Positions 19,478 through 22,154 of a DNA stretch of 64,000 bases are shown in pieces. Under the pieces are notes generated by a model. It did no database searches and was not told the origin of the DNA. It saw only the letters and a list, made by a program, of their open reading frames with translations. Positions within the stretch are counted from its first letter, which is position 1; each line of letters begins with the position of its first letter. The translations under genes were made by a program, and so were the position numbers. Origin of the DNA: Anaerolineaceae bacterium. Lineage in GTDB: Bacteria > Chloroflexota > Anaerolineae > Anaerolineales > Anaerolineaceae. Where the stretch lies: the NCBI GenBank assembly GCA_016841365.1, contig JAENZI010000006.1, positions 121,398 through 185,397 on the forward strand. The letters run 5' to 3'.

Positions 19478-20299
19478 TCATCCTCCTAATAATGGCAGAC
19501 GATAAGTCAGCCATTGCGATCCGGTCCAGGCTCGAAAAACATTATGGGAAAGGTCTTTCAACAATGCGCCAGGCTGCAGGGTGAGTGTTTCAGCCTGTTT
19601 TAAATTGCGGGTCCTCCCCAGGATGCGAGTGCGGAAGGGTTCCAGCCAATAGCCCAATTCAAGCGCATAACTGGCTTTGATCGCCGCGACCACCCAGATA
19701 TTAGATTGCGCCCCGTAAGATAGCAGCCAGCGCAAATTGACCTGGGCTTCTAAACTCAAACCTTCCACATAATTCAGATCGTCCAAAACAAACAAAATGT
19801 CAGGCCCGGTCTGTCGGCTTTCACGGCGCGCTTCAGCAAGATCTGTCAGGCTGTCGATCAAATCTTCAGCCCGTTTGTCGTACCAGGCAAAACAGCCCTG
19901 GAAATACATTTTCTGCGTGGATTGCAGGCAGATTCGGCCCCAGTCCTCAGGGTGATGAGTCAGAACCGCAATTTGCAGCTGGTGGGGCGCACAGGTGCTG
20001 ATTGCGCTGTCCACCATCACCTGGAGCTGATGCGTTTTACCGCAACCCTCATCGCCAGAAACCAGGATTGCACCGAGTTCAGGGTCTGTCAGTGATAGAA
20101 AAAACGGCATCCGATCTGAGCAGCGCCCTAACAGCACCGATTGCGCCGGCACGGGGCGTGTTTCTGCCAGAATTGAACCGACCGTATCTGGCTTTGACAT
20201 TAACTTTGTAGATCCAAACCGATTGTGACGGATTTTTAATCCCATCGACAAGTGTTGATAAGGTTTGATGGTGTTCACATACAGATTTGAGGTACCCAT
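19478..20299 (-). CDS. P-loop ATPase, FtsK/HerA-like, under SOS-type control
   Basis: A 273-residue protein with Walker A GDEGCGKT (residues 82-89) and a Walker B ILFVLDDLN (D173/D174). The spacing and the helix after Walker A resemble the FtsK/HerA/TraG branch of P-loop motors, though it is far shorter than a translocase and has no membrane segment. No helicase motifs beyond the P-loop core are visible. The ATG at 20299 has CGGAG six bases upstream. The promoter overlaps two GAAC-N4-GTTC operators (see those entries), the pattern of a DNA-damage-induced gene. A role in DNA repair, DNA processing or defence is inference from promoter and fold. Confidence 0.75.
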   Translation of the reverse strand: MGTSNLYVNTIKPYQHLSMGLKIRHNRFGSTKLMSKPDTVGSILAETRPVPAQSVLLGRCSDRMPFFLSLTDPELGAILVSGDEGCGKTHQLQVMVDSAISTCAPHQLQIAVLTHHPEDWGRICLQSTQKMYFQGCFAWYDKRAEDLIDSLTDLAEARRESRQTGPDILFVLDDLNYVEGLSLEAQVNLRWLLSYGAQSNIWVVAAIKASYALELGYWLEPFRTRILGRTRNLKQAETLTLQPGALLKDLSHNVFRAWTGSQWLTYRLPLLGG

Positions 20300-20324
20300 G
20301 TTTTGCTCCGTTTTCCAGTAATTC

Positions 20325-20336
20325 GAACTTATGTTC
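20325..20336. promoter_or_regulatory. SOS-type operator, downstream copy
   Basis: GAACTTATGTTC fits GAAC-N4-GTTC, the core of the LexA box used by Gram-positive bacteria. It lies just downstream of the -10 element, across the predicted transcription start. Confidence 0.7.
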
Positions 20337-20338
20337 TA

Positions 20339-20366
20339 ATTATACAGAACTTTTGTTCTATGTCAA
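20339..20366 (-). promoter_or_regulatory. Promoter of the SOS-type ATPase operon
   Basis: On the minus strand, perfect TTGACA and perfect TATAAT are separated by 16 bases. The spacer is occupied by one operator, so a bound repressor would block polymerase. It is the best-matching promoter in the window. Confidence 0.78.
20347..20358. promoter_or_regulatory. SOS-type operator, upstream copy
   Basis: GAACTTTTGTTC, again GAAC-N4-GTTC, located inside the promoter spacer. Its centre is 22 bases, about two helical turns, from the other copy, so two repressor dimers would sit on one face of the DNA. Confidence 0.72.
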
Positions 20367-20411
20367 GTGTTTTTCTGATTTTTCTTTGACCTACTTTAGA
20401 AAATTCCCATC

Positions 20412-20440
20412 TGCACACATCACAAAAATTGTGGTATAAA
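20412..20440 (+). promoter_or_regulatory. Candidate promoter of glnA leader
   Basis: TGCACA and TATAAA separated by 17 bases, with an extended -10 (TGG before TATAAA). Predicted start near 20447, giving a leader of about 365 nucleotides that contains the ribozyme-like element. Confidence 0.5.
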
Positions 20441-20500
20441 CCATTTTGTCAATGATGATCGTCAGGTTCAGGCGATCAAACAATGGAATAAGCGGAAATC

Positions 20501-20707
20501 AAGCGGCTGACTCTCATCCAATCATTAGATGAGACGACGAGGTGGAGGTTCCTCCCTGCAAAGGGAGTGCTAACCCGTTTTTACGGGAAAAATCGAACGA
20601 TCAGCGGAAGCCTCCTGGATCTGACACAGGTCCAAGTTTTCCCAATTCATCAAAGTGGATGCTCAAAACTGGATGGCGACATTCAGGACAAAACAACCAT
20701 CGTGTAG
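20501..20707 (+). ncRNA. glmS-ribozyme-like RNA in the glnA leader
   Basis: The sequence follows the glmS ribozyme core in order. AAGCGGCTGA holds a candidate A/G cleavage site at 20502/20503. A 7-bp P1 stem pairs TCTCATC with GATGAGA (20512-20534). Then come GACGAGG and TGGAGGTT (20536-20550), ATCGA (20592-20596) and ATCAGCGGAAGCCTCC (20600-20615). GGAGG pairs with CCTCC as P2, and GCTGA (20506-20510) with TCAGC (20601-20605) in the place of P2.1. P3 is a GGATC/GGTCC hairpin; its loop ACAC can pair with GTGT at 20702-20705 as P3.1. P4 is a 7-bp stem with a GCGA loop (20669-20686). A 40-base insertion (20551-20590) forms two hairpins of its own. glmS ribozymes are self-cleaving RNAs that use glucosamine-6-phosphate and normally precede glmS; here the next gene is glnA. 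Confidence 0.65.
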
Positions 20708-20813
20708 CAAACGCCCATGCTTGCAGCTATCGGCGTATGCATGATGTTATTCCTGTTTTGAATGCCAATCACCTGATGGTACACCCAATCTATTTTAAGT
20801 TATGGAGGTTGTG

Positions 20814-22154
20814 ATGAACGGTGATGATGTCATCAAAAGGATTAAAGAGGACGATGTAAAGTTCATCTCTTTCCAGTTCACAGATGTGAACGGCGTGGTT
20901 AAGAGTGTGGATGGATCGCTCTCGCAGGTTGAAAAAGCACTGAAAGACGGCATTTGGTTTGATGGTTCCTCGGTAGAAGGCTTCGCCCGCATCCAGGAAA
21001 GCGATATGCACCTGGTGATTGACCCCGATACTTATGCTGTATTACCCTGGACACCTAAGGAGATGCGCCGGGCACGCGTCCTGTGCGACATTTACCTGCC
21101 AAATGGGCAGCCTTTCTCAGGTGACCCACGCGGTGTGCTCAAACGGCGCCTGGCAAAGATGAAAGAAGAACGGAATTTCATTTTCAATGTCGGCCCAGAG
21201 CCCGAGTTCTTCCTTTTCCTGCAAAACGGAAGGGATACAATCCACCCGGTTCCGCATGATGTCGGCGGCTATTTTGATTTTTCTGCAGACGATGAAGCCG
21301 TCCAGGTCAGAACAGAGTTGATGCAAGCCCTGACAGAAATGGGTCTCGAAATCGAAGTCGGGCACCATGAAGTCGCATTAGGACAGCATGAGATCGACTT
21401 CCGCTTTGCCGATGCCCTTAAAACAGCAGATAATGTATTGACCCTGAAGTATGCGGTCAAAGCCATTGCAGCCCAACACGGTCTGATCGCATCCTTTATG
21501 CCCAAGCCCGTATTTGGGATCAACGGATCGGGCATGCACTGCCATCAATCCATTTTCAGCCCAGAAGGCGAAAACCTGTTTTACGACTCCCAGGATCCTT
21601 ACCAGCTCTCAACCCTGGCGCGGCATTTCATCGCTGGTCAGCTCTTGCATGCCAGAGCGCTTTCTGCGATTGTCGCCCCAACCGTCAACTCCTACAAACG
21701 TCTCGTCCCGGGCTACGAAGCGCCGGTGTATATCGGCTGGGCACAGGTCAACCGCTCCGCACTGATCCGCATCCCCCAACCCTACCCAGATAAACCAGAC
21801 ACCGTACGGCTTGAGCTGCGCTTCCCGGATCCCTCTGCCAACCCCTACCTGGCTTTCAACGCCATGCTGGCAGCCGGGCTTGACGGCGTCGACCGGCAGC
21901 TAACTTGTCCCGAACCGCTGAACCGTCTGAACGTCTATGACCTGTCAGAAGAAGCCCGCCAGGAACTCGGCATTGAGATGCTTCCAGGTTCTCTGTTCGA
22001 AGCGCTGACCGCGTTTGAAGCAGACGAGATGCTGCAAGATGCCCTGGGAGAAAGCCTGACGGATGCTTTCATGAAATCACGCCGGGCAGAGTGGGAAGAA
22101 TTCCGCACCCATGTGACAGATTGGGAGTTGAACCGCTATCTAACAACAGCATAA
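20814..22154 (+). CDS. glnA: Glutamine synthetase, type I
   Basis: A 446-residue GSI subunit that makes glutamine from glutamate, ammonia and ATP as a cytoplasmic dodecamer. Visible landmarks are WFDGSSVEGFARIQESDM at the N-terminal domain, the ATP/metal site VGPEPEFFLF, the glutamate-binding NGSGMHCHQS, and LRFPDPSANPYLAF. The length fits the shorter GSI-alpha group, which is usually controlled by feedback rather than adenylylation. GGAGG at 20804-20808 fixes ATG 20814. The leader of about 365 nucleotides carries a glmS-ribozyme-like element ending about 105 nucleotides before the start, so expression is likely set at the mRNA level. A terminator follows. Confidence 0.97.
   Translation: MNGDDVIKRIKEDDVKFISFQFTDVNGVVKSVDGSLSQVEKALKDGIWFDGSSVEGFARIQESDMHLVIDPDTYAVLPWTPKEMRRARVLCDIYLPNGQPFSGDPRGVLKRRLAKMKEERNFIFNVGPEPEFFLFLQNGRDTIHPVPHDVGGYFDFSADDEAVQVRTELMQALTEMGLEIEVGHHEVALGQHEIDFRFADALKTADNVLTLKYAVKAIAAQHGLIASFMPKPVFGINGSGMHCHQSIFSPEGENLFYDSQDPYQLSTLARHFIAGQLLHARALSAIVAPTVNSYKRLVPGYEAPVYIGWAQVNRSALIRIPQPYPDKPDTVRLELRFPDPSANPYLAFNAMLAAGLDGVDRQLTCPEPLNRLNVYDLSEEARQELGIEMLPGSLFEALTAFEADEMLQDALGESLTDAFMKSRRAEWEEFRTHVTDWELNRYLTTA

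Follow-up and report, generated by a model that had tools for sequence, protein, structure and literature searches.

A glmS-family ribozyme before a glutamine synthetase gene, and a likely nitrogen-assimilation regulon of related ribozymes in Anaerolineales

A glmS-ribozyme-like RNA in front of a glutamine synthetase gene raises the question of what such an RNA could control there. The glmS ribozyme is a textbook ribozyme riboswitch tied to one gene, the family elsewhere stands before an amino-sugar gene, and a 2011 survey by McCown and others reportedly placed all but two of 463 glmS ribozymes in glmS mRNAs. The RNA lies in a 64,000-nucleotide stretch of an Anaerolineaceae genome (the window) and was proposed in a preliminary description made from the DNA letters. 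A covariance search upheld the proposal: nucleotides 20491-20710 (+) match the Rfam glmS model, RF00234, end to end (model positions 1-167) with 47.7 bits (E = 5.5e-8 for the whole window against 4227 Rfam families), above the gathering score of 37 bits, and the only other Rfam matches above cut-off in the window are two tRNAs. By sequence and predicted structure, it belongs to the glmS ribozymes. A 90-aa open reading frame (20542-20814) overlaps it, but a protein-coding origin of its conservation was rejected because insertions, deletions and compensatory changes favour an RNA.

The downstream gene, glnA (20814-22154, +; ATG at 20814, preceded by the Shine-Dalgarno sequence GGAGG at 20804-20808), encodes, as had been stated, a glutamine synthetase, and a true type I enzyme of 446 aa (TIGR00653, 552.3 bits against a cut-off of 429; among solved structures the closest sequences are those of glutamine synthetases, best E = 1e-151). 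It is the sole PF00120 match in the 2.86 Mb genome, which is estimated to be 98% complete. The window copy therefore does not occupy a glmS 5' UTR; the glmS circuit is elsewhere in the genome, where a second RF00234 match (37.6 bits) stands immediately before glmS.

Local alignment to RF00234 predicts cleavage between A(-1) and G1, that is, A20502 and G20503 (+). The AA/GCGG site suggested earlier thus stands, while the ambiguity attributed to a second AAGCGG at 20490-20495 does not, since that copy is absent at this place from the other 28 glnA-linked leaders described below and falls within the strand of a helix that we call P0. The plus-strand anatomy comprises the P2.2 5' strand CGGCUG (20504-20509, by pairing register), the P1 hairpin (20512-20518 with 20528-20534, by alignment and by pairing in 29 copies; A8, at the base of P1, is unpaired in the alignment of this copy), the P2.1 5' strand CGA (20538-20540) and 3' strand UCG (20593-20595, part of the cofactor pocket by homology; PMC7125110, in excerpt), the P2 strands GGAGG (20544-20548) and CCUCC (20611-20615), the P2.2 3' strand CAGCG (20602-20606, by pairing register), the P3 hairpin (20617-20633) with the P3.1 loop strand ACAC (20624-20627), an interrupted P4 outer stem (20655-20661 with 20694-20700), a P4 inner stem (20669-20675 with 20680-20686) closed by a GCGA loop (20676-20679), and the P3.1 3' strand GUGU (20702-20705); the P2.1 5' strand, P2, P4 and the P3.1 3' strand are assigned from pairing in 29 copies. 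Two inserted hairpins lie within P2 (20552-20556 with 20563-20567, and CCCG/CGGG at 20574-20587), with two-sided changes in 4/5 and 4/4 pairs, respectively. They correspond to the 40-base insertion noted before; it is present but not peculiar to this copy, and as a glnA-specific trait the hairpins were rejected, because by eye the glmS-linked ribozymes of relatives carry them too.

To place the window copy among its relatives, RF00234 was searched against 61 genomes (the window's genome plus 60 relatives: 15 from the genus, 21 from the family and 24 from the order), some of them incomplete and with search filters that lose weak matches. There were 73 matches in 50 genomes (25-55 bits, above cut-off in 21 genomes), and all 73 precede glmS (44) or glnA (29) on the same strand within 300 bases; glnA leaders were thus matched in 29 of the 61 genomes. 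Both copies were found in 23 genomes, only a glmS-linked copy in 21, only a glnA-linked copy in 6 and neither in 11. One genome with no RF00234 match (G018) scored 145 bits with the glnA-linked model R1 described below. Among 14 control genomes, only Bacillus subtilis and Deinobacterium chartae gave matches.

The structure drawn on the window's own sequence was then applied to the 29 glnA-linked ribozymes. Pairing was kept in 91.9% of cells, compared with 79.4% in shuffles and 36-42% in slid controls. Covariation in relatives, which the preliminary description had named as a check, was also found: two-sided changes occurred in 38 of 55 pairs, a count reached by 0 of 500 shuffles but inflated by kinship and based on a structure derived from one member of the set. 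The paired fraction was 100% for P2, 97.7% for P2.1, 97.1% for P3, 91.6% and 83.0% for the inner and outer parts of P4, and only 72.6% for P3.1. All 6 pairs of P3, and pairs in P4 inner, P4 outer and P3.1, changed on both sides, which bears out the P3.1 (ACAC/GUGU) and the GCGA-capped P4 read from the single sequence. A(-1) is present in 28/29 copies, and GCG, G1, C2, G3, the P2.1 5' strand, the P2.2 second strand and G56 in 29/29 (in the window C2-G56 is 20504/20606), as are ACGAGG, the P2.1 CG and CAGCGG. Residues 28-30 are CGA in 29/29, and residues 43-45 are UCG in 27/29, with U43 varying and CG kept in 29/29. Residues 28-30, 43-45 and 56 form the cofactor pocket and active site (numbering as in PMC7125110, in excerpt), and the window's copy retains the cleavage-site and pocket bases that were checked.

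The helix P2.2 departs from the canonical core in a specific way. The double pseudoknot of P2, P2.1 and P2.2, with a bulge in P2.2, is present, and in the window P2.2 pairs as C2-G56, G3-C55, C5-G54, U6-A53 and G7-C52, with G4 (G20506) bulged. The complementarity of GCTGA and TCAGC reported previously is real, but its register is not the family's. All 29 glnA-linked copies can form five P2.2 pairs, and the bulged base is position 4 in 27 of them and position 5 in 2; because four of the five pairs never vary within this set, covariation there cannot support P2.2. Position 4 is G, A or U in the 29 glnA-linked copies, never the canonical C, whereas C4 is present in all 44 glmS-linked copies. Of the latter, 38 form five P2.2 pairs and 6 form four; among the 38, the bulge is at position 5 in 22 and at position 6 in 2, and pairing alone leaves its position open in 14. 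Bases 4-6, readable in 87 of 90 loci found with R1, are GCU (61), ACU (14), UAU (11) or UCU (1). In vitro, C4G was termed highly detrimental in the measured core, and C4A was rescued ~24-fold by A6C, presumably with position 4 bulged (PMC7125110, in excerpt). At the level of sequence, the natural glnA-linked clade displays the P2.2 arrangement deduced from those mutants. The loss of C4 counts against an active ribozyme, and the glnA-linked copies are predicted to be active on the strength of the shifted bulge. Outside the order, one family has A4 in its glmS-linked copies too (AGCGACAG, L246, L254, L260), so a change at position 4 alone is no marker of the glnA link.

In a tree of 73 cores (123 columns), the glnA-linked and glmS-linked ribozymes are split on one branch (support 100/99, and 99% of 200 bootstrap trees), although resolution is poor at the finer forks and the tree program gave a warning about long branches meeting. 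The glnA-linked ribozymes are, on these sequences, one clade, and since a single well-supported branch separates them from the glmS-linked line, the two seem to be old paralogues. Position 26 is G in 44/44 glmS-linked and 19/29 glnA-linked copies, and apart from it the core bases are otherwise alike between the clades. By a crude pattern, a P4-like hairpin was seen in 28/29 glnA-linked and 12/44 glmS-linked copies, which suggests a reduced periphery in the glmS-linked line.

Variant riboswitches with changed ligands exist, and the nitrogen-linked clade might likewise have kept the glmS fold while its ligand changed (for example to another amine), or lost cleavage and become a plain aptamer. 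The long branch that parts it from the glmS-linked copies would fit such a history, as would the differences at position 4 of P2.2 and at position 26, the latter in a triple with P2.2. Of the readings other than our own this one survives best, but we regard it as unlikely, because the invariant or nearly invariant bases listed above (G1, C2, G3, the P2.1 5' strand, the P2.2 second strand and U43) are those of the active site and pocket (PMC7125110, in excerpt), and because the shifted bulge preserves five P2.2 pairs in every copy. Nor is another expression platform visible: the idea of an intrinsic terminator, or of a special downstream fold, was rejected because 20300-20830 holds no terminator-like site and the stretch from ribozyme to start codon shows no unusual fold (z = -0.01).

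A further helix, P0, involves the strand that a cleavage reaction would release. Nucleotides -14 to -2, numbered from the cleavage site, are unpaired in the RF00234 structure line but complementary to the joint between P3 and P4; in the window, the predicted partners, from a permutation pairing test, are GGAAA (20494-20498, +), close on the 5' side of the cleavage site, and UUUCC (20638-20642, +). Across 131 ribozymes (the 29 glnA-linked, the 44 glmS-linked and 58 from the class survey), the mean Watson-Crick stem was 6.56 with a ribozyme's own partner and 4.95 with swapped partners, and 0 of 2000 permutations reached as high. In the glnA-linked set alone the stem test again gave 0/2000, and an energy test was weaker (58/2000); in some copies the best stem lies outside the P3-P4 joint. 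A further 86 ribozymes from the pattern set described below (15 identical to members of the first set and 3 lacking flanks were dropped) again gave 0/2000, and controls in that set showed no comparable excess for a strand farther upstream (164/2000) or a region farther downstream (1817/2000). The signal was absent from 23 loci outside the class, where the site was located by a crude pattern (879/2000). The predicted P0 is thus common to glnA-linked and glmS-linked copies of the class, and we know of no description of such a helix.

The DNA around the leader was searched for other signals. On the plus strand of 20300-20830 no sigma-70-like site was detected; two were found, both on the minus strand. 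By eye, TTGACA-like boxes lie upstream of the ribozyme in several relatives, an ACAA(C/T)TGAATA-like conserved stretch stands ~15-25 bases before the cleavage site in glnA-linked loci, and TTGACA/TA...T promoter-like pairs are found farther upstream in seven (L052, L061, L081, L082, L087, L089 and L094); the conserved stretch and the upstream pairs together suggest that the leader 5' of the ribozyme is short and conserved. Separately, the minus strand holds a perfect TTGACA-16-TATAAT promoter (20366-20339) next to two GAAC-N4-GTTC boxes (20325-20336 and 20347-20358), which resemble Bacillus-type LexA (SOS) operators, and these precede a P-loop ATPase-like gene at 19478-20299 (-).

How might the ribozyme act on glnA? 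The RNA would be transcribed together with glnA, glucosamine-6-phosphate (GlcN6P) would serve as ligand and cofactor, and its binding would trigger self-cleavage at A20502/G20503; the product with a 5'-OH would be decayed by RNase J, which the genome encodes (TIGR00649, 577 bits), and glnA expression would be repressed. GlmS makes GlcN6P from glutamine, so GlcN6P would report sufficiency of glutamine and fructose-6-phosphate, and at a high level both the glnA and the glmS mRNA would be cut. We put the probability of this main reading, in which a glmS-family RNA before the only glutamine synthetase gene found undergoes GlcN6P-triggered self-cleavage that likely lowers glnA expression, at roughly 0.8. 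The earlier suggestion that amino-sugar levels shut down glutamine synthesis is supported as a predicted role and fits the anatomy. Because lowering the only glutamine synthetase at high GlcN6P could be costly, repression may be partial. The genome has a single weak match to P-II (24-28 bits) and one partial, weak match to glutamate synthase (34.6 bits), so one may guess that the ribozyme ranks among the main controls on ammonia assimilation here.

The direction of control in this scheme is a prediction, and 5' processing can stabilise mRNAs in some systems. A working ribozyme whose cleavage raised expression, or served only in 5' processing, would make GlcN6P an activator of nitrogen assimilation. 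We consider this very improbable, since in the known glmS riboswitch RNase J1 degrades the cleaved mRNA (PMC7125110, in excerpt) and an RNase J is encoded here.

In the class, RF00234 matched 77 of 150 genomes. Of 75 loci read (one of the same order), 66 lie within 300 bases of glmS. Among the remaining nine, with genes named by eye, glmS is the second gene in 2, an FAD-oxidase-like gene follows in 1, the stretch ends in 2, and 4 are led by an aminotransferase gene (glmS is ~2.4 kb on in 1 of these and the stretch is too short in 3). In the last group (L235, L239, L241 and L272) the ribozyme stands before a DegT-like gene, and in L272 an oxidoreductase-like gene follows before glmS; such a ribozyme may lead an amino-sugar operon. 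In L247 (genome G093) the FAD-linked oxidase-like gene comes directly after the ribozyme, and the genome's other copy precedes glmS. In the phylum, 36 of 121 genomes matched, and of 27 new loci (two of the same order, with five further matches left out) 26 precede glmS and 1 is unplaced. Across the order, class and phylum loci read, the glnA link was seen only within the order Anaerolineales.

Within the order, two further surveys indicated what the glnA-type ribozymes precede. The first used a glnA-type DNA pattern with one genome per species, and some of its records are the same genomes as in the 61-genome and R1 surveys. It gave at least 119 stretches, 104 of them with the second core strand. 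Eleven of the 119 listed have room for that strand but lack it and look like chance; six of these eleven are titled as other phyla. Among the 104 loci listed, glnA comes within 750 bases in 66, farther on behind an Ada-like gene in 14 and after an EamA-like gene in 1; glutamate synthase follows directly in 8 and past at least one small gene in 2; the stretch ends early in 11, and 2 are orphans. The AraC-HTH/Ada-like gene was rejected as a separate target, because a same-strand glnA follows it in 14 of 18 loci and the stretch ends early in the other 4. An EamA-like permease gene (by eye) lies between it and glnA in three loci read fully, and in L177, L180 and L194 the order of ribozyme, AraC-HTH/O6-methylguanine methyltransferase-like gene (DNA-repair-like; a name from Pfam on the L187 copy), EamA-like permease and glnA is operon-like. 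Complete glnA-type ribozymes with no evident co-directional downstream gene within reach were seen in L140 (Longilinea arvoryzae KOME-1) and L204; these are possibly relics or processing sites.

The second survey used model R1, built from the glnA-linked core of 27 of the 29 sequences (two long ones were omitted). R1 matched 215 of 251 genomes of the order, a figure that is not a glnA-linked count since R1 also catches glmS-linked copies at lower scores. We read 90 loci: of the 97 matches listed at E <= 3.3e-24 we took 89, and we added another that scored 88.5 bits; the 8 left out comprise 5 already placed before glnA and 3 others, and 6 of the 90 repeat loci of the 61-genome survey. Downstream, glnA lies within 650 bases in 58 and farther on in 9 (8 of them behind an Ada-like gene), glutamate synthase lies within 650 bases in 16 and at 691-1133 bases in 3, an Ada-like gene is followed by the end of the stretch in 1, and 3 belong to none of these classes. 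Of these three, L370 meets the end of the stretch, L361 has two small genes like those before glutamate synthase in L364 but lacks the synthase, and in L368 an ammonium transporter gene (PF00909, 349 bits over the part searched) comes before a P-II gene (PF00543, 93 bits), the amtB-glnK link being this one locus. In all, 87 of the 90 loci have a GS, GOGAT or AmtB gene downstream. Glutamate synthase genes were located by tblastn, and Pfam covered a single locus, L161 (PF01645 for the first gene, at 22.3 bits with a cut-off of 20.4, and for the second, at 299; GXGXG for the third, at 39.5). The isolates Bellilinea caldifistulae GOMI-1, Levilinea saccharolytica KIBI-1 and Pelolinea submarina MO-CFX1 also carry the ribozyme before glnA.

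Amino-sugar control of nitrogen gains weight from the fact that the same ribozyme clade leads glutamate synthase and, at one locus, amtB-glnK; in such relatives high GlcN6P would lead to cutting of those mRNAs as well. That the RNAs are functionless relics or chance matches is scarcely credible, for the modest RF00234 scores, above cut-off in about a third of the 61 genomes, and the two orphan copies are set against covariation, order-wide conservation, a fixed gene context and a single clade. We consider it probable, with less confidence than we have in the reading of the window copy, that a paralogous lineage with a shifted bulge made GlcN6P a nitrogen signal across Anaerolineales, forming a ribozyme regulon of glutamine synthetase, glutamate synthase and AmtB plus P-II genes in which P0 would tie down the cleaved-off strand.

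What is likely new, then, is both the variant of this known ribozyme and its regulon, the mRNAs of nitrogen assimilation, predicted to be cleaved in response to GlcN6P. A separate clade of glmS ribozymes stands before ammonia-assimilation genes in many genomes of one bacterial order, and if the reading is true, RNA catalysis couples amino-sugar supply with the control of nitrogen. The alternative structure deduced from in vitro mutants (PMC7125110, in excerpt) has a natural parallel in the P2.2 bulge shift, and P0 is a covarying helix containing the leaving strand, so the shift and P0 are both open to direct test. Our literature search found no paper joining glmS ribozymes to glnA or glutamine synthetase, Chloroflexi or Anaerolinea, and where excerpts of four papers name the target of glmS ribozymes, it is glmS (PMC3766115, PMC2258182, PMC11602151 and PMC11477304).

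The glutamine riboswitch RF01739 is likewise a glnA-named leader RNA, with glutamine as its ligand (PMC3766115, in excerpt), but it has no match in the window at the gathering score and none at E up to 5 in 20200-21000. With RF00234 ribozymes such as those of Bacillus subtilis and Thermoanaerobacter tengcongensis, the window copy shares the cleavage dinucleotide, P1, the P2/P2.1/P2.2 double pseudoknot, P3, P3.1 and P4 with a GNRA loop. The glmS-linked ribozyme of the same genome (G000:C3:168403-168620) resembles it in core, inserted hairpins and P0 but has a CGCC/GGCG P2.2, no P4 recognised by eye, and a place in the other clade. Whereas RF00234 glmS ribozymes precede glmS, the window copy precedes glnA; compared with the known glmS ribozyme, its P2.2 bulge lies at position 4 and not at 6, its P2 holds two additional hairpins, and its 5' product strand takes part in an extra predicted helix, P0.
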